Positions 4,049 to 40,019 of a DNA stretch of 64,000 nt are shown here, one piece after another. The notes beneath the pieces were generated by a model. It saw nothing but the letters and a program-made list of their open reading frames with translations. It had not been told where the DNA came from and did not search any database. Numbering within the stretch: the first letter of the stretch is position 1; the number at the start of each line of letters is the position of its first letter. The DNA is from a virus. Where the stretch lies: the IMG/VR virus record IMGVR_UViG_3300000228_000003, positions 1-64,000 of that record; one strand, written 5' to 3'. Made by a program: the position numbers and the translations under genes.

Positions 4049-4945
4049 ATGGATAAGCACACACAACTAGAGAACACGACACACAATGCACACAACATAG
4101 GTATATACTATGGCGGAAATGATAATATCGACATATATAACATAGTAACTAGACTAGACGCTAGTGGTGTTAAAGTGGGAGAAGAGACCAGTGCAGGTAC
4201 GGCTAGGTATTTTTTAGCTGGTGCTGGTGTAGGTAACATAGGTATATATCATGGCGGGTATGATGGTAATAATATACATAACTTAGTAACTAGAATAGAT
4301 GCTAGTGGTATTAAAGTGGGAGATGAGACTACTGTTGGTACTACAGCTAGATATCTTTTAGCCGGGGCAGGTGTGGACAACATAGGATTATTTTATGGTG
4401 GAAGTGATACTGACGACACATTTAACTTAGTAACTATACTAGACGCTAATGGTATTAAAGTGGGAGATGAAACTAATGTTGGTACTGAAAGATTATATTT
4501 AGCTGGTGCAGGCATAGGTAACATAGGTATATACTATGGCGGGTTCGATGGTGATACACATAATTTAGTAACTAGAATAGACGCTAGTGGTGTTAAAGTG
4601 GGAGACGAAACTAATGTTGGTACTGCTAGAAACTATTTAGCAGGAGCAGGCATAGGTTGCATGGGCGTGTTTTATAGTGGAAACTATGGTAATGACCGAA
4701 TATTCAACACAGTAACTAGAATAGACGCTAGTGGTGTTAGAGTAGGAGACGAAACTAATGTTGGTACGGCTAGGTATCTTTTAGCTGGGACAAGTGTAGA
4801 TAACATAGGACTATTTTATGGTGGATACGACGGTAATGATAATACACTTGATGTAGTAACTATCATAGACGCTAATGGTACTACAGTAGGGTATGAGACT
4901 AATGTTAGTACTGCTAGAGATAGTTTAGCAGGAGCAGGTATATAA
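4049..4945 (+). CDS. Kelch-repeat protein, six repeats
   Basis: 298 residues made almost entirely of six tandem units of about 47 residues. Each unit has a (I/V/L)(Y/F)YGG doublet, then a variable loop, N-x-VT-R-I-D-A-S-G, V-G-D-E-T-N-V-G-T-A-R and LAGAGV. The GG doublet and the arrangement are those of Kelch motifs, one beta-propeller blade each; six would close a propeller. The most variable positions follow the GG, the loop expected to be exposed. No signal peptide, so a virion surface or fibre part or an intracellular binder is possible. It is the first of three related genes, and each ends LAGAGI. Confidence 0.85.
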   Translation: MDKHTQLENTTHNAHNIGIYYGGNDNIDIYNIVTRLDASGVKVGEETSAGTARYFLAGAGVGNIGIYHGGYDGNNIHNLVTRIDASGIKVGDETTVGTTARYLLAGAGVDNIGLFYGGSDTDDTFNLVTILDANGIKVGDETNVGTERLYLAGAGIGNIGIYYGGFDGDTHNLVTRIDASGVKVGDETNVGTARNYLAGAGIGCMGVFYSGNYGNDRIFNTVTRIDASGVRVGDETNVGTARYLLAGTSVDNIGLFYGGYDGNDNTLDVVTIIDANGTTVGYETNVSTARDSLAGAGI

Positions 4946-4954
4946 CAATATAAG

Positions 4955-4984
4955 TAGTAGTAGAGGTTATAACCTCTACTACTA
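4955..4984. terminator. 30-bp palindrome after Kelch gene
   Basis: A perfect 30-bp palindrome centred on GGTTATAACC, just after the stop of the first Kelch gene. No T-tract follows. It is one of a family of such elements at transcription-unit ends in this window. Confidence 0.6.
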
Positions 4985-5024
4985 TTACTTATTTTTATTT
5001 ATAAACGATAATAAGGAGATAAGA

Positions 5025-5477
5025 ATGGCGCGCAATAAGCATAACATATGTATGTTCTATGGCGGATATAATATTAGTATAGGAGCATTCAACACAGTAA
5101 CTAGAATGGACAGTAATGGTGTTAATGTGGAAGATGAAACTAATGTTGGTACTGCTAGATATATTTTAGCAGGAGCAGGTGTAGGTAACATAGGTGTGTA
5201 TTACGGTGGATACGAAACTAATATTGTCATGCACAACAGAGTAACTAGAATAGACAGTGATGGCGCTATGGTGGGAAACGAGACTAATGTTGGTAATACG
5301 GCTAGATATAATTTAGCTGGAGCAAGCGTTAATAACATAGGTATATACTATGGTGGATTTAATAATAGTAATACATTTAACACAGTAACTAGAATAGACG
5401 TTAGTGGTGCTATGGTGGGAAGTGAGACTAATGTTGGTAATACGGCTAGGTATTATTTAGCTGGAGCAGGTATATAA
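5025..5477 (+). CDS. Kelch-repeat protein, three repeats
   Basis: 150 residues with three of the same units found in the neighbouring Kelch genes, again ending LAGAGI. Three blades cannot close a standard six- or seven-bladed propeller alone, so it may dimerise or be a shortened copy. It begins MARNKHNI after AAGGAGATAAGA, the same leader as the gene at 6906. The short form looks like loss of repeats from a six-repeat ancestor. Confidence 0.82.
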   Translation: MARNKHNICMFYGGYNISIGAFNTVTRMDSNGVNVEDETNVGTARYILAGAGVGNIGVYYGGYETNIVMHNRVTRIDSDGAMVGNETNVGNTARYNLAGASVNNIGIYYGGFNNSNTFNTVTRIDVSGAMVGSETNVGNTARYYLAGAGI

Positions 5478-5484
5478 TATAAAT

Positions 5485-5508
5485 AGTAGTAGAGATATCT
5501 CTACTACT
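5485..5508. terminator. 24-bp palindrome
   Basis: A perfect 24-bp palindrome centred on GAGATATCTC, directly after the stop of the three-repeat Kelch gene. Its arms share AGTAGTAGAG with the palindrome at 4955-4984, so the two are probably duplicated along with the genes. Confidence 0.6.
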
Positions 5509-5550
5509 TATTACTAAAACATAATAAACACATAATCATATTATAAAATA

Positions 5551-5590
5551 ACATATAGGTAATGGAGGATATCCTCCATTACCTATATGT
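5551..5590. terminator. 40-bp palindrome between convergent genes
   Basis: A perfect 40-bp palindrome centred on GGATATCC, ending four bases before the 3' end of the minus-strand gene at 5594-6688. It probably acts for the minus-strand unit or for both. It is the longest perfect palindrome I found here. Confidence 0.7.
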
Positions 5591-5593
5591 CGT

Positions 5594-6688
5594 TTATTTG
5601 CCTACTATGCTTTTTATATTACTCACACTAGTTACGTATCTATCGTAAATTATAGGTGGTATTCTATTTTTTATTTTAGTATTTTTACTCTCTATTTTCT
5701 TTATTACCATCCTAGTTGCATACACTATACCAGTATTTTTACTTATACCTTTACTACCCATAGTGTTTAACAGTTTGTCTATGTAAAACACACGACTTAA
5801 CCATAATGCCCATTCAGACTGTGTAGTGTAATACTCTTTATCTATACGTAAAGCATCTAGTGCACTAGTATTTAAAAACATAGGTATATTCATAAGTAAC
5901 GCTTCTAACGTTATACTAGTATTATTAAGTTCATCATACTTATCAGTTATACACGTTGTTAACATATGGTCTTGGCTAGATAACGCAAAGATATAATCAT
6001 GTTCTGTTAACAGCTTAACAGGGTTATAATAGTTACCTAAAAATAGATTTATAGTAGCTATATTAAAAATACTAGGTATCAAATTAGGTAGTACTACCTG
6101 TGTTATAAAAACAGCTACATCAACACTACTAGTATCAGATATTATATGCTTATCATACCATAATTTATATTGTAACACTAGATGTACTAAATCTATTTGA
6201 TAAACAGACAGTACTCTATTATCAAGTTCTTTATTACCATCTGGTAACCACATATTGCAATCACCATCTTCAGAATATATACATTTTATAGCAGATGTTG
6301 ATAAACAAGTGTCTATACTATAATAATAATCTATAAAAGTATTTTCTACATGTAAAAATATCTCTGTAGAGTTATAACCATATAAAATATTAGAAGTACT
6401 ATTACCATAGTTAATATCACTGACTATATTAAATGTTTTACTATAGTACGATACAGTGTTCATAGCTGTATTGATAAATTTATCCACACTTATATTAACA
6501 TCTGGCGCAATGTGTTTTATAAGCCTAACTAGATAATGCTGGTTATCAACACGAAACTCTCTATTTTTATAATACTTTTTTATAGTATGTAAATTATCTA
6601 AAGCTATTTTTCTTACATAATCATTATTATGATGTGTGCTTATTATAACGTTATTATTAAGTTGCGTATTTAAAAAGAAACTAAACAT
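5594..6688 (-). CDS. Hypothetical protein in Kelch locus
   Basis: 364 residues, Asn/Tyr/Ile-rich, with no clear signal peptide, membrane segment or catalytic motif. It is the only minus-strand gene in the Kelch locus. Directly upstream of its start lies the truncated 3' end of a Kelch gene, so it appears to have entered the locus and removed most of that copy. It carries its own terminator palindrome (5551-5590). Composition resembles its neighbours. Function unknown. Confidence 0.75.
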   Translation of the reverse strand: MFSFFLNTQLNNNVIISTHHNNDYVRKIALDNLHTIKKYYKNREFRVDNQHYLVRLIKHIAPDVNISVDKFINTAMNTVSYYSKTFNIVSDINYGNSTSNILYGYNSTEIFLHVENTFIDYYYSIDTCLSTSAIKCIYSEDGDCNMWLPDGNKELDNRVLSVYQIDLVHLVLQYKLWYDKHIISDTSSVDVAVFITQVVLPNLIPSIFNIATINLFLGNYYNPVKLLTEHDYIFALSSQDHMLTTCITDKYDELNNTSITLEALLMNIPMFLNTSALDALRIDKEYYTTQSEWALWLSRVFYIDKLLNTMGSKGISKNTGIVYATRMVIKKIESKNTKIKNRIPPIIYDRYVTSVSNIKSIVGK

Positions 6689-6784
6689 AACTTATATCCT
6701 TAGTGAGTTATTACTTCAGATAATTTTCAACACTATATTATTAAATAGTAAGATAAATTATTTTACTATTAACTTGGAAAGGTT

Positions 6785-6883
6785 GACAACGTAGTAACTA
6801 GAATAGACGCTAGTGGTGTTAAAGTGGGAGATGAAACTAATGTTGGTACAACTAGACATGCATTAGCAGGTGCAGGTATATAA
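6785..6883 (+). pseudogene. Truncated 3' remnant of a Kelch-repeat gene
   Basis: The sequence reads in frame as the last part of a Kelch unit, from DNVVTRIDASG through VGDETNVGTT to LAGAGI and a stop, exactly as the three complete Kelch genes end. There is no start codon, and everything upstream is the unrelated promoter region of the minus-strand gene. It is a leftover of a fourth Kelch gene. Confidence 0.85.
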
Positions 6884-6905
6884 CATAAATAATAAGGAGA
6901 TAAAA

Positions 6906-7769
6906 ATGGCACACAATGTACACAACATAGGTATGTACTATGGTGGAAGCAGCGGTAATAATAAACACAACTTAGTAACTAGAATAGACGCTAGCGGTGT
7001 TAAAGTAGGAGATGAAACCAATGCTGGTACTGCTAGAGCATATTTAGCAGGGACAGGTATAGGTAACGTAGGTGTCTATTATGGTGGAAGCGATAATAAT
7101 GAACTTAACTTAGTAACTATAATAGATAGCGATGGCAGTACGGTTGGAAGTGAGACTGCTACTGGTACAGCTAGGTATTTTTTAGCTGGGGCAGGTGTAG
7201 GTAACATAGGTGTCTATTATGGTGGGTTCGATGGTGATATACTTGATATAGTAACTAGAATAAACGCTAGTGGTACTAAAATAGGAGATGAAATTACTGT
7301 TGGTGCTTATTATAGAGATAGTTTAGCTGGGGCAGGTGTAGGTAACATAGGTATCTATTATGGTGGGTTCGATGGCGATATACTTAATATAGTAACTATA
7401 CTAGATGCTAGTGGGGTTATAGTTGGAAGTGAGGTTACTGTAGGTACCGCTAGGCAATTTTTAGCTGGGGCAGGTATAGGTAACATAGGTATATTTTACG
7501 GCGGTAACGATGATAATGAACACAACAGAGTAACTAGAATAGATGCTAATGGTGTTATGGTTGGAAACGAGACTATTGTTGACACGGCTAGGCAACTTTT
7601 AGCTGGCGCAAGTGTTAATAACATAGGCATATTTTACGGTGGATATGATGGTAGCGGTGGTAGTAATGTACTTAACACAGTAACTAGAATAGACGATAGT
7701 GGTGTTAGAGTAGGAGATGAGACTAGTGTTGGTACTGCTAGAGATGGTTTAGCTGGCGCAGGTATATAA
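6906..7769 (+). CDS. Kelch-repeat protein, six repeats
   Basis: 287 residues from the ATG at 6906, which follows AAGGAG and gives MAHNVHNIG, parallel to MARNKHNI at 5025. A start further upstream at 6870 lies inside the Kelch remnant and is rejected. Six units with YYGG or FYGG doublets at the start of each are followed by VTRIDASG and (V/I)GDE motifs. Several units differ from one another mainly in the few residues after GG. Probably one closed six-bladed propeller used for binding, perhaps on the virion surface. Confidence 0.85.
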   Translation: MAHNVHNIGMYYGGSSGNNKHNLVTRIDASGVKVGDETNAGTARAYLAGTGIGNVGVYYGGSDNNELNLVTIIDSDGSTVGSETATGTARYFLAGAGVGNIGVYYGGFDGDILDIVTRINASGTKIGDEITVGAYYRDSLAGAGVGNIGIYYGGFDGDILNIVTILDASGVIVGSEVTVGTARQFLAGAGIGNIGIFYGGNDDNEHNRVTRIDANGVMVGNETIVDTARQLLAGASVNNIGIFYGGYDGSGGSNVLNTVTRIDDSGVRVGDETSVGTARDGLAGAGI

Positions 7770-7796
7770 TAACTTAAATACACGAAATATGTAGTA

Positions 7797-7884
7797 ACTA
7801 GGTTATGGTGTTACAAAAAAGTTAACACTATACTATTAATTAGTATAGCGTTAGCTCTTACTAAATTTCTTAAAAAGGATGACT
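7797..7884 (+). promoter_or_regulatory. Leader with TATGGTGTTAC element and hairpin, copy 1
   Basis: Contains GGTTATGGTGTTACAAAAAA, then a hairpin at 7828-7848 with 8-bp arms CTATACTA/TAGTATAG and loop TTAAT, then a shared block ending in AAGGA. Almost the whole leader is repeated upstream of the gene at 8668. It probably combines a promoter with a structured 5' untranslated region. Confidence 0.65.
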
Positions 7885-8502
7885 ATGAGTAAAGTACTTA
7901 ATGTACTTATCACAGGTGATGTAGATTCTAAAATCAGTGCTATGTTGGCTAAATACATTTTCCTAAGAAAACCAAATAACGATAATGGTTTTAACCAGAC
8001 TGAAAACGAGCTTATAGTCAGTGTAACAGACTATAATTTTAGTATAGTAGAAGCTATAGAGTTCGCTATGACTAAAGGTACAGTCGATAATATTACAATA
8101 GCAGGTCTTGGTTTACATACTCAAAACTTAAGCGCTTTTAAAGAGCACATGAACCATAGAACAGGTGTAGTGTTTCAGGATTATAATGGTGACACGTTTA
8201 AAGGGTTAGCTAAGTACTGGCAAGATAAATTTCCAGATGAACACATGCCACCTGTATTTGGATTTTTTATCACCGATATTTATAACCCCATGTATGTGCC
8301 AACCGGTATACCTCTAGACACTATGACTACTCATGTTATTGGTAAAATGTATCACCATAACCGGAATGTTAATTATGCTGAGTTTTTATCAAAAGCTATA
8401 ATTACTTTAGGTAGTGATATAAGACACCTCTCACCAGAACATACTAACTTTACATTAGGCGTAATGTATGGTCTTTGGAATAGCGCGACTTTTAGTAGTT
8501 AA
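7885..8502 (+). CDS. Hypothetical protein, probably abundant structural
   Basis: 205 residues. The ATG at 7885 is preferred over one six bases earlier because AAGGA (7875-7879) overlaps the earlier codon. Mixed alpha/beta globular sequence with no membrane segment and no recognised motif. The structured leader it shares with the gene at 8668 suggests co-regulation and possibly high expression. A tail tube-sized protein is conceivable but unsupported. Confidence 0.7.
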   Translation: MSKVLNVLITGDVDSKISAMLAKYIFLRKPNNDNGFNQTENELIVSVTDYNFSIVEAIEFAMTKGTVDNITIAGLGLHTQNLSAFKEHMNHRTGVVFQDYNGDTFKGLAKYWQDKFPDEHMPPVFGFFITDIYNPMYVPTGIPLDTMTTHVIGKMYHHNRNVNYAEFLSKAIITLGSDIRHLSPEHTNFTLGVMYGLWNSATFSS

Positions 8503-8570: not shown

Positions 8571-8667
8571 TACATTAGGTTATGGTGTTACAAAAAAAGT
8601 TAACACTATATTATTAATTAGTATAGAGTCAGCTCTTACTAAATTTCTTAAAAAAAGGAAAAACTAA
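8571..8667 (+). promoter_or_regulatory. Leader with TATGGTGTTAC element and hairpin, copy 2
   Basis: Near-copy of 7797-7884. The hairpin at 8606-8626 differs from copy 1 by one stem base (C to T), which turns a G-C pair into a G-U pair in RNA and keeps the stem intact. Preservation of the fold argues for function at the RNA level. Confidence 0.65.
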
Positions 8668-10491
8668 ATGTCACAGAACGCGGCAACAAATAATGCGTCA
8701 ACAGCAGGTGTTTTGTCTATTGGACAAGGTAATTATGAGAATAATAATGACACAACTAACACAATGGGTAGCACGAAAGTAAATATGGTATCTAATACGC
8801 TGACTAATAGTTGGTTAAGAGCTTCGTCAGAAACGGCTACTAAGTATTACGAACAGTTTAAAAAAATAGAAAGTAAAAACACCAATAACAAAATAACGTT
8901 ATTGCTTATGGATAGTCTAACGCACGGATTAGGTTACAGTCTAATACTAGCGGTACAAGTACTACCTAATAGTTTAGTGGTTGTACCACTAATCATAGCA
9001 GATGCTGGAAAAACAGTGTTAACAGTAGGTGATATAAGCCAAAAGATAGTTAACCAACGAGATAAAAGCGTGATATACACACCTGTAGATGTATTAAATA
9101 CAGTGGGTATAAACAAAATAAATATGTTCTTGTCAACTACCTATGGCAATATAGGTATTACTATGCTAGACACGATTGTAGTGCCAGCTAAAACAGATGA
9201 AGATATAAATATGTTAACGATTTTATTAAAAGCTTCTACAGCTTTAATAGAAGAACATATTGCGGCAATGTCAGGTACAATCTCTCCAAATCTAAAAGAG
9301 ACTATGTCAAACGCTATTATGCGATTTAATTTAACGTCACTACCAGGTACTGTTAAAACAGATATCTTTGGCAAAAAGATATCTGTTGATACAGAAATCT
9401 CACTATCTAAGACCAGTATATTAAGCGCTGGAAAAATAGATATAAATGCTGGTGAACAAGATGATGTGGAACTGTGTCGTGTCACGACAGTACTAGATGC
9501 TATGCCGTATGAGCTACAAGAACGTAATAATATGGGCGGTGTTAATAATGTTATAAAAATGATACCTATAGTGGTGGTAAGTTCTGCTATAACCGCTGGA
9601 TTTACGCCATTTAACTTCTTATTAACAATACTAACGGCAGCTACAGCTAGTACACCAACAGGTATATTTAATGCCATATATAGGCAAGGTGCTAACAATA
9701 AACATGGTGCGTTAAACATTATTACGCAATCTACAAGAACACCTACAGGTGTCACGTATGGAGATAACTGGGAGAATAAAATAGGTGAGCACTCTGACCT
9801 AGGTGAGTTCATGACACTAGTTAAACACTTATATAACGTATCGTCTCCTATCATGGCGTTCGATATATCGTCTGGTACACTAACCAGTTGCCTAGCTGGT
9901 ATACTGGTCGCTGGTGCTAAGAATAATGTACTTGGGTACGATAGCGCACTACGTGCTATCGTCAAATCGGCACATACTCTTACTGCTGGTAAGTTCCCAG
10001 TTGACTATGATATTGCTAATATTATAACAGCAGCACAAAAGTTACCAGACGGTACATATATGTCACCAAGTGGAATACGTCCACTAAGTGAAATTGACTA
10101 TAAAACACTATTAGCGGAGAATAGACTTGACCTAGCTAATAGATATCTACAAGTTATGAATGACAACAGTGGTACTGATATGCCGTATGCGGAAATGATT
10201 AGAATTTACAGCGAATTAAAATTGTCGCAAGCAGAAATAACAAATGAAAAGTACAGAGTGTACTTGAACGCAACATTTGTTAATACCTTATTAAAGAGTA
10301 TAGCACAGCTAGGAGTAGCTGGAGATGTATATACAACGTATATGGTGCCAATGGATACAGAGTATTATTTATCTAATAGTAATACGTTAGGCGGAAGTAT
10401 GATAACAGGTGGTATTCCTAACTATTCCACACAACACGGACCAGTGGCATCATTAGCATTTGGCGGAGGGCAATGGGGTAGAGCATACTAA
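8668..10491 (+). CDS. Large virion structural protein (putative)
   Basis: 607 residues with a polar, Asn/Thr-rich N-terminus, a mixed globular body, a hydrophobic Ala/Thr/Ile-rich stretch around residues 305-335, and a Gly-rich C-terminus (FGGGQWGRAY). Such length and composition are typical of jumbo-phage virion proteins. A structured duplicated leader precedes it and a strong terminator hairpin follows, so it is probably a one-gene, highly expressed unit. No specific family assigned; sheath motifs were looked for and not seen. Confidence 0.65.
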   Translation: MSQNAATNNASTAGVLSIGQGNYENNNDTTNTMGSTKVNMVSNTLTNSWLRASSETATKYYEQFKKIESKNTNNKITLLLMDSLTHGLGYSLILAVQVLPNSLVVVPLIIADAGKTVLTVGDISQKIVNQRDKSVIYTPVDVLNTVGINKINMFLSTTYGNIGITMLDTIVVPAKTDEDINMLTILLKASTALIEEHIAAMSGTISPNLKETMSNAIMRFNLTSLPGTVKTDIFGKKISVDTEISLSKTSILSAGKIDINAGEQDDVELCRVTTVLDAMPYELQERNNMGGVNNVIKMIPIVVVSSAITAGFTPFNFLLTILTAATASTPTGIFNAIYRQGANNKHGALNIITQSTRTPTGVTYGDNWENKIGEHSDLGEFMTLVKHLYNVSSPIMAFDISSGTLTSCLAGILVAGAKNNVLGYDSALRAIVKSAHTLTAGKFPVDYDIANIITAAQKLPDGTYMSPSGIRPLSEIDYKTLLAENRLDLANRYLQVMNDNSGTDMPYAEMIRIYSELKLSQAEITNEKYRVYLNATFVNTLLKSIAQLGVAGDVYTTYMVPMDTEYYLSNSNTLGGSMITGGIPNYSTQHGPVASLAFGGGQWGRAY

Positions 10492-38417: not shown

Positions 38418-40019
38418 ATGATAAGCAATAAACGTGTATACACTATGGAAAATAACGCATTTGATAGCAGCGATGACCATATATTAAGTGTTGATGGTGA
38501 CGAAAGTACTGCTATATCTTTTAGTAGTAATAATGAAGATGATACAGATATTAGTTTAGAAGAACTAGATACATATACAAGAAACTATCTTAATGGGTAT
38601 TTAGCGTTATCTAATGCTAAAGCTTATGCTGTAGAACATAGTAGTACACCGCTTGGTTTAAAGGTATTAACTACAACATTAGAAATGGTTAATAGTACAT
38701 TAAAACTAAAATCTAAAGATACATATGTTATTACTGTAGAAAGCAATACTTATTTAAGCTATACTATTACGATTGAAGCAGCTGATGGTATGATGTCTAA
38801 AATATGGGAAGGTATAAAAACATTCTTTAAAAAGATATGGGATGGCATAACTTCATTATTTAGTAAAACTAAAAGTAAAAATGCAGAAGAAGTTAAAAAA
38901 ATAGAAACTTCTTCTGCAGAGATTGTTAATTTACAAAAACAAGTAGAAGCCACTAAAACTATAGAGGTGGAAGATGTTTTATCAGTAGAAGTTTCTATGG
39001 GGTTAGTTAAACCATTATCAGGCTTTATATATAAAAACCCTACTATAACTATACAGCAATTACAAACTAACATAGCGGCGTATTTTTCGTATACAGCTAG
39101 TAATGGACACCCAATACTTGCTTTCATCGACACATTGACTAGTTCGATAAATAGTATAATATCAATTATGCAAGCTATACCATCTGGTCCTGCAACAGAT
39201 ACAAATAGCGTTATTAAAATGACCAGTTCAGAAGCGGAAGTTAAGATAAACGAAGTATTATTAAAAAATGGCTTTGCAAAGTATTCTGGATTAGTTACTA
39301 AGTTAAATATAGATGTTAGTAAATTAAATGGAGATACTTCGTTTATTAGTAATAAATACTATATACCACTAGGTATTCATAATGATGAATTCTATATATA
39401 TATTATAGGCACTAAAGATTTTCCTGGCGAGGATAAAGATAGATATAAATCTAGTATTGAAAAACTCACTATAAAACCAGAGGTGTATAGTAAGATAAGA
39501 TTACCTGTTATGAAAAACGAGAATGATATTAGTGTATATTCCAAGACGGCTGAGACATGGAGCAATGCAGTAACAAGTACTAGTAATAGTGTAGACACTG
39601 TTAAAAATAAAACCAATGAGCTTTTAAATAAAGTAGATGCAGAAGTAAAAAGACAAAATGATAATATACCTAGAAATTTCATAGACTTTGCAAACACTAT
39701 AATAACAGGTTATTTGTCAGCACTAAATATCTACGCACATCGATTATATGGTACAGACCTTATTACTTTAAGTAACTATTTCGATGCAGTAAAAGACCAT
39801 TATAATGCAGCATTAGCTGTTAAAAATGAAAAAGCAGCAACTAATCAAGCAGAAGCGGATAAAACAGCAACTAACCAAGCAGCAGCTAACCAAGCAGAAG
39901 TTGATAAAGCAGCAGCTGACCAAGCAGCGGCTAACCAAGCAGCAGCGGATAAAGCGGAAGCTGATAAACCCAAGGGCTTTATTAACAGGGCTAAAAACTT
40001 TTTAGGTAGTAAAAAATGA
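38418..40019 (+). CDS. Inner-head-like protein family member 2 with Ala-rich repeats
   Basis: 533 residues. An acidic N-terminus is followed by ITVES and TITIEA sites and an aromatic amphipathic helix (MMSKIWEGIKTFFKKIWDG) at about 130-150. The C-terminus (475-516) is a repeat of AANQA and ADKA units forming a likely long helix, ending in a basic GFINRAKNFLGSKK tail. The start at 38418 follows AAGGAAAG. It overlaps the next gene by four bases. Inner-head role inferred from the family layout. Confidence 0.6.
   Translation: MISNKRVYTMENNAFDSSDDHILSVDGDESTAISFSSNNEDDTDISLEELDTYTRNYLNGYLALSNAKAYAVEHSSTPLGLKVLTTTLEMVNSTLKLKSKDTYVITVESNTYLSYTITIEAADGMMSKIWEGIKTFFKKIWDGITSLFSKTKSKNAEEVKKIETSSAEIVNLQKQVEATKTIEVEDVLSVEVSMGLVKPLSGFIYKNPTITIQQLQTNIAAYFSYTASNGHPILAFIDTLTSSINSIISIMQAIPSGPATDTNSVIKMTSSEAEVKINEVLLKNGFAKYSGLVTKLNIDVSKLNGDTSFISNKYYIPLGIHNDEFYIYIIGTKDFPGEDKDRYKSSIEKLTIKPEVYSKIRLPVMKNENDISVYSKTAETWSNAVTSTSNSVDTVKNKTNELLNKVDAEVKRQNDNIPRNFIDFANTIITGYLSALNIYAHRLYGTDLITLSNYFDAVKDHYNAALAVKNEKAATNQAEADKTATNQAAANQAEVDKAAADQAAANQAAADKAEADKPKGFINRAKNFLGSKK
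39838..39968 (+). repeat. In-gene Ala/Asn/Gln/Asp/Lys repeat
   Basis: About 130 bp of imperfect repeats built on GCAGCTAACCAAGCAG and GCAGCGGATAAAGC. It encodes alternating ANQA and ADKA units at the end of the gene 38418-40019. Likely prone to length change by slippage. Confidence 0.8.

Follow-up and report, generated by a model that had tools for sequence, protein, structure and literature searches.

Phages must keep altering the proteins with which they touch bacteria, and the familiar ways in which they do so are retroelement hypermutation and the swapping of fibres. Propellers are found on the tails or vertices of several phages, with a contact with the host proposed or modelled: the receptor-binding protein of phi11 (Gp45) contains one, gp131 of phiKZ has been named as a candidate and PRD1 P2 is a further example (PMC4901313). 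Three Kelch-like proteins (CBB_550, CBB_552 and CBB_554) are encoded in the jumbo phage CBB, of which CBB_552 is present in the virion, and other giant phages with such proteins are cited in the same work (PMC5259590). Constant scaffolds with hypervariable ligand positions are known among the phage binding proteins targeted by diversity-generating retroelements (DGRs), such as the tentaclins (PMC10743442). A stretch of 64,000 nucleotides, hereafter the window (positions 1 to 64,000 of the IMG/VR virus record IMGVR_UViG_3300000228_000003), contains at positions 4049-7769 a locus of Kelch-like genes, with a further gene, here called the partner gene, directly upstream of the first of them. On balance, this locus is likely to be a mobile, fast-diversifying cassette of phage binding proteins, probably tail adhesins.

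The locus resembles that of CBB in coding for predicted Kelch-type propellers, several copies of which lie close together. Unlike the CBB-type genes, those in the window have a conserved partner beside them, code for propellers with one hypervariable face and for blades homogenised gene by gene, and match no Kelch model of Pfam. The propellers of phi11 Gp45, phiKZ gp131 and PRD1 P2 differ in being five- or seven-bladed, and neither homogenisation of repeats nor a gene family is described for them in PMC4901313. A constant scaffold with hypervariable presumptive ligand positions is shared with the DGR targets; here, however, no reverse transcriptase or template repeat was found in the records searched, and the variability extends along all loops of the gene.

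A six-bladed propeller was predicted for Kelch-like gene 1 by AlphaFold2 from an alignment of 25 sequences (predicted local distance difference test, pLDDT, 94.4; predicted template modelling score, pTM, 0.91), with a C-terminal strand (residues 291-297) following the last blade in the manner of a ring-closing strand. Searched with Foldseek, this model matched the designed SAKe Kelch propellers, KLHL17, Keap1 and KLHL12 (E 1e-17 to 1e-15), and the Kelch-domain matches, with template modelling scores of about 0.8, also include KLHL20, which the profile of the phage family matches by sequence as well (E 5e-7). In BFVD, the structural matches include virion structural proteins of PhiPA3, Noxifer and Phabio, poxvirus Kelch proteins and Kelch-like proteins of jumbo phages. 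The Kelch propeller proposed in an earlier reading of the window, made from the sequence only, therefore finds agreement between the structure prediction, the structural matches and the KLHL20 profile match, and a Kelch-type beta-propeller fold is predicted with high confidence. Like Keap1 and the KLHL proteins, the phage proteins would have six four-stranded blades, whereas they lack BTB and BACK domains, are only about 20% identical to them and have strongly repetitive blades. The window proteins had no match in Pfam at E 1, to Kelch models or to any other, and they depart from the classical Kelch sequence motif, with no conserved Trp and with Ile, Leu or Met at the Tyr position (VTRID), for which reason they are termed Kelch-like. 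The remark in the same reading that Kelch repeats are more familiar in eukaryotic proteins is a fair one, although Kelch-like proteins had been described from giant phages before, including one from a virion (PMC5259590).

The 15 blades in the window are 46-49 residues in length and 14 of them contain the GG doublet. They had been described as near-identical, but their mean amino acid identity within a gene is only 0.60-0.65 (0.73-0.77 for the DNA), and identity between genes is about equal. The scores of the Kelch arrays in Tandem Repeats Finder (344-873) rule out chance. When all 15 blades are aligned, the variation is indeed concentrated in the residues after the GG doublet (columns 9-18), as had been noticed, but a second hotspot of equal strength, which had been missed, occurs in columns 43-44, the two residues following TAR. 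These columns differ in 75% of blade pairs and the remaining columns in 30%, a contrast that was reached in none of 20,000 shuffles. Several DNA columns near GTAACTAGA are more uniform than codon usage predicts; as this uniformity is consistent with common descent, a separate DNA signal around this motif is not claimed.

In the model of gene 1 the variable columns correspond to the b-c turn (e.g. residues 166-171 in blade 4) and the d-a turn (residues 195-196). Judged from the topology of a four-stranded antiparallel blade rather than from inspected coordinates, the b-c and d-a turns would be grouped on one face, opposite to the a-b and c-d turns. The variable face presumably corresponds to the Nrf2-binding face of Keap1. 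The same distribution is found in 22 related six-blade genes. Blades of one gene differ from each other by 0.81 in the b-c loop, and for the d-a turn the difference reaches 0.88, whereas the strands, the a-b turn and the c-d hairpin give values of 0.25-0.30; these column groups were defined with the data already in view, but they match the turns seen in the model. In each of the 22 genes the variable face is more diverse than the opposite one, in line with the earlier suggestion that variation falls on the presumed ligand-binding side.

Rapid change in the loops is most evident in L026 and L027, two of the uncultured phage contigs and records that are referred to here by locus labels. In the block common to both, the N-terminal domain of the Kelch protein is identical, the partner gene differs at 1 of 169 codons and the framework of the propeller differs at about 2% of sites. 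The proportion of nonsynonymous sites that differ (pN) is 0.334 in the b-c loops, versus 0.017 in the framework and 0.002 in the partner (Fisher p 1e-17), and this loop value is above the proportion of synonymous differences (pS) in the loops (0.135) and about 18 times that in the framework (0.019). The b-c loops also carry codon insertions or deletions. In a second pair, L016 and L017, the loops are near saturation (pN 0.66), with a framework pN of 0.05. A constant scaffold with variable ligand positions could point to targeted hypermutation of the retroelement type, as could the third base T that is retained in many of the replaced codons of L026 and L027. Against this, the changes are spread over all loops of the 1-kb gene, include gained or lost codons and are not restricted to adenines, no extra template-like Kelch copy occurs in the L026 record, and reverse transcriptase (RVT_1) was detected in none of the 19 records, which are incomplete, although the positive controls were detected. 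With neither a reverse transcriptase nor a template repeat in the records examined, DGR activity is a highly improbable source of the loop variation.

While the loops diverge, the blades of a gene are kept alike. Blade identity is 0.63 within a gene, and between phages it amounts to 0.411 for blades at the same position and 0.407 for blades at different positions; this independence of position indicates that, in a given lineage, the blades serve as the source of one another's renewal. In L027, the loops of blades 1 and 2 are equal except for one base, which is likely the result of copying from blade 1 to blade 2. When the 15 window blades were subjected to a GENECONV-like test, the global p was 0.03-0.05, but the best runs are located in the conserved segment and the test is hence confounded. 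Exchange between repeats, inferred from the homogenised blades and the one loop copy, would together with selection on the exposed loops most simply account for this pattern. Whole genes are also gained and lost, as had been supposed for the window, and this is seen among the relatives: L039 contains at least five Kelch genes (plus a cut sixth) and L040 three, their partners being 90% identical, while the Kelch genes have no one-to-one orthologues and are 61-72% identical in all combinations. The accompanying supposition that repeats, too, are freely gained and lost did not hold. Complete Kelch genes almost always have six blades, aside from 18 in giant genes and three in several half-size genes (gene 2 in the window, L056 and L038); free variation of blade number is thus rejected, and the near-constant number suggests that the size of the ring is constrained. 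The three-blade proteins, the product of gene 2 among them, may complete a six-bladed ring by pairing. In L036 (1509-10561), two giant proteins of 1104 and more than 1609 amino acids, with 18 Kelch blades each, flank the partner gene.

The Kelch gene and its partner are also found together in other phages. Viral contigs scanned with gene 1 or with an alignment of the three genes gave no matches, these patterns being too specific, while a profile of the blades retrieved three further uncultured phages with blades 60-63% similar; a scan of genome contigs gave a single match of 12 residues, from a bin assigned to Ruminococcus (L012). Gene 1 and the L010 protein share 55% identity. In all three relatives the Kelch gene adjoins a gene of about 188 codons that is homologous to the window partner, which shows 28-32% identity to the partners in L011 and L009 (E 4e-15 and 1e-19, respectively). 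Searching with the partner alone yielded 29 contigs, of which 26 could be assessed, and in 23 of these a Kelch gene occurs within 600 bases, although the independent cases are fewer than 23, as three of the 29 contigs are the seed loci and some sequences are present twice. No Pfam family is matched by either gene, and for the partner, which looks like a helical protein, the best hit is at most a weak one, to a single PHROG of unknown function. A search of 50,697 isolate phage records with gene 1, two Kelch proteins of the relatives and the partner found only an unannotated repeat region of the cyanophage S-SKS1, coding for a related repeat protein (28% identity over 95%). PHROG 19111 (E 3.5e-10) and PHROG 27227 are likewise among the closest matches.

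The genes that surround the pair in the relatives code for tail collar and S74 chaperone proteins (L009), a GP4 fibre protein gp80 (L010) and a glycine-rich protein (L011), and tail-fibre-like neighbours were read by eye in L032, L033, L035 and L040. The same two-gene cassette is thus present in tail-fibre modules of phages that show no sign of a nucleus. As it occurs in unrelated phages, the cassette appears to be mobile and to move between them. Upstream of the block common to L026 and L027, identity drops abruptly to about 73%, which reflects either a recent transfer of the cassette or a chimeric contig. This junction lies about 190 bases before the Kelch gene of L027; in the comparison of the otherwise different contigs L057 and L050 it is seen as a sharp rise from about 70% to 100% identity near base 4637 of L057. 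A different second repeat protein of 248 amino acids, with an NHL-like look, is encoded near the partner and Kelch genes in L032 (6794-7540).

Several observations weigh against a fast-diversifying tail adhesin. The ratio of nonsynonymous to synonymous change (dN/dS) in the b-c loop is 0.5 among the window blades, and synonymous divergence is raised there as well (pS 0.60 vs 0.36); the d-a turn has a dN/dS of 3.7, on less than one synonymous site per pair. The case for fast loop change comes mainly from the one close pair L026/L027, one contig of which ends inside the common block, within the partner gene, and several near-identical contig pairs from different samples carry identical Kelch genes. 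The loop values in the window and these identical genes would fit loops that are simply unconstrained, in repeats whose similarity is maintained through replication slippage and unequal crossing over, with no selected diversification. Such relaxed constraint is improbable, however, as variation is confined to one face, with a-b and c-d turns that are conserved like the strands in 22 of 22 genes, and as the loop pN between L026 and L027, above both loop and framework pS, goes beyond neutral change. The location and architecture of the window genes are further points against an adhesin: they adjoin the gene for the nuclear shell protein chimallin, outside the tail module and about 95 kb from the tail-fibre genes of this phage, and their products lack the N-terminal, virion-type domain found ahead of the propeller in many relatives. 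Both would suit the main rival explanation, which places the propellers within the infected cell, for instance at the phage nucleus, as protein-binding platforms whose variable face tracks proteins of the host or the phage, defence factors for example. The Kelch domains of eukaryotes and poxviruses, the latter among the BFVD matches, bind proteins and provide a precedent for such a role. It is nonetheless considered rather unlikely, given that this cassette is part of tail modules in other phages, which show no sign of a nucleus, and that one Kelch-like protein of a jumbo phage was found in the virion (PMC5259590).

In the favoured reading as a binding-protein cassette, the partner gene would be combined with several copies of a six-bladed Kelch-type propeller, the constant scaffold of which would present the b-c loops and d-a turns of the six blades as a variable binding surface on one face. 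Fast change on one side, with conservation of the rest, would be expected where a protein has to follow binding partners on bacteria that are themselves changing. Bacterial surface structures would be the most likely ligands and the propellers would form part of, or be attached to, the tail fibres; adhesion and a place in the virion are suggested here by the gene surroundings in relatives and by the precedents in other phages. Diversity would arise through rapid change in the loops, through copying of sequence among blades and gene copies, which would also homogenise the scaffold, and through gain and loss of whole genes. It is conceivable, though doubtful at present, that the two genes represent a widespread, hitherto unrecognised cassette whose binding face is diversified without reverse transcriptase, by recombination between blades and between gene copies that would also keep the scaffold uniform, with unrelated phages exchanging the cassette among themselves. 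The conserved partner, the spread among unrelated uncultured phages, the hypervariability of one face and the homogenised blades with turnover in gene number are new features, and no account of such a cassette or of such one-face diversification turned up in a limited search of the open-access literature. If true, six variable loops on one face, with uniformity elsewhere maintained by exchange between repeats, would constitute another route of diversification and a natural library of Kelch scaffolds with a fold close to that of the designed SAKe propellers, and a likely role would be given to a gene pair left unnamed by the family libraries searched.

The three intact Kelch-like genes with six, three and six blades and the 3' remnant recognised earlier were borne out by the gene calls and translations (Table 1), and two features had escaped that reading, namely the core gene inside the interval and the partner gene just outside it. 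The remnant translates as NVVTRIDASGVKVGDETNVGTTRHALAGAGI, followed by a stop codon. It had been stated that all four share their leader and last residues, and LAGAGI does form the C-terminal end of each, whereas the start and leader, including the ribosome site, are common to genes 2 and 3 only (AATAAGGAGATAARAATGGC; MARNKH and MAHNVH) and gene 1 starts differently (MDKHTQLENTTHNAH). For gene 3, the caller of open reading frames (ORFs) chose GTG at 6870, but the ribosome site AATAAGGAGATAAAA belongs to the ATG at 6906. The sequence joining the remnant to gene 3 can be aligned with that joining gene 1 to gene 2, ribosome site included, so that the duplicated unit is a whole gene with its leader. 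The core phiKZ-like gene is situated between gene 2 and the remnant and thus now has Kelch copies on both sides; its homologue in L005 immediately adjoins the gene at the chimallin position.

Table 1. Features of the Kelch-like locus and its borders, in window positions
Feature	Position	Strand	Details
Partner gene, 284 aa	3138..3992	+	unnamed family; N-terminal part homologous to the Kelch-adjacent gene of other phages
Kelch-like gene 1, 298 aa	4049..4945	+	six blades, starting at 4094, 4235, 4379, 4520, 4658, 4802
Palindromic, terminator-like hairpin following gene 1	4953..4986	+	
Kelch-like gene 2, 150 aa	5025..5477	+	half-size, three blades, starting at 5043, 5187, 5334
Palindrome following gene 2	5485..5508		AGTAGTAGAGATATCTCTACTACT; terminator score on minus strand
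Strong hairpin separating gene 2 from the core gene	5551..5590		terminator-like on both strands
Core phiKZ-like gene, 364 aa	5594..6688	-	non-Kelch; phrog_3938, E 9e-39
3' remnant of fourth Kelch-like gene	6776..6884	+	about 36 terminal codons with stop; match to gene 1, E 8.6e-12
Kelch-like gene 3, 287 aa	6906..7769	+	six blades, starting at 6924, 7065, 7203, 7344, 7482, 7620

The record that includes the window is 118,709 bases in length and probably incomplete. By its predicted genes it is a divergent nucleus-forming (Chimalliviridae-like), chimallin-encoding jumbo phage. The chimallin gene (8668-10491) matches phrog_4795 over nearly the whole protein in a profile search (E 1.2e-12); pairwise BLAST showed no similarity between its product and the L005 protein at the equivalent place, and its assignment is based on the profile match and gene order. 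Several ORFs for RNA polymerase beta subunits point to a multisubunit phage RNA polymerase, and a DnaB helicase and a phiKZ-type major head protein are also encoded. The window DNA has no DNA match among the phage records, and no close relatives of the phage were found in the collections searched, relatives of its polymerase being only 22-25% identical.

Two neighbouring proteins of about 1000 amino acids, resembling tail-fibre or collar proteins, matching the same PHROGs and containing repeated stretches, are encoded at L077 1095-7237 (about bases 103,095-109,237 of the record), which is possibly a second, perhaps duplicated, adhesin locus of the same phage. Downstream of gene 3, two nearly identical leaders of about 85 bases (GGTTATGGTGTTACAAAAAA-GTTAACACTATAYTATTAATTAGTATAG...CTCTTACTAAATTTCTTAAAA) occur at 7786-7878 and 8573-8667, preceding ORF 7879-8502 and the chimallin gene, respectively, and are probably a common promoter or 5' leader. 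Elsewhere in the window, 13.3 perfect copies of the 7-mer ACTACTA are found at 130-222, and a coding tandem repeat with 15/45-base units is located at 39827-39968, close to the end of ORF 38418-40019.

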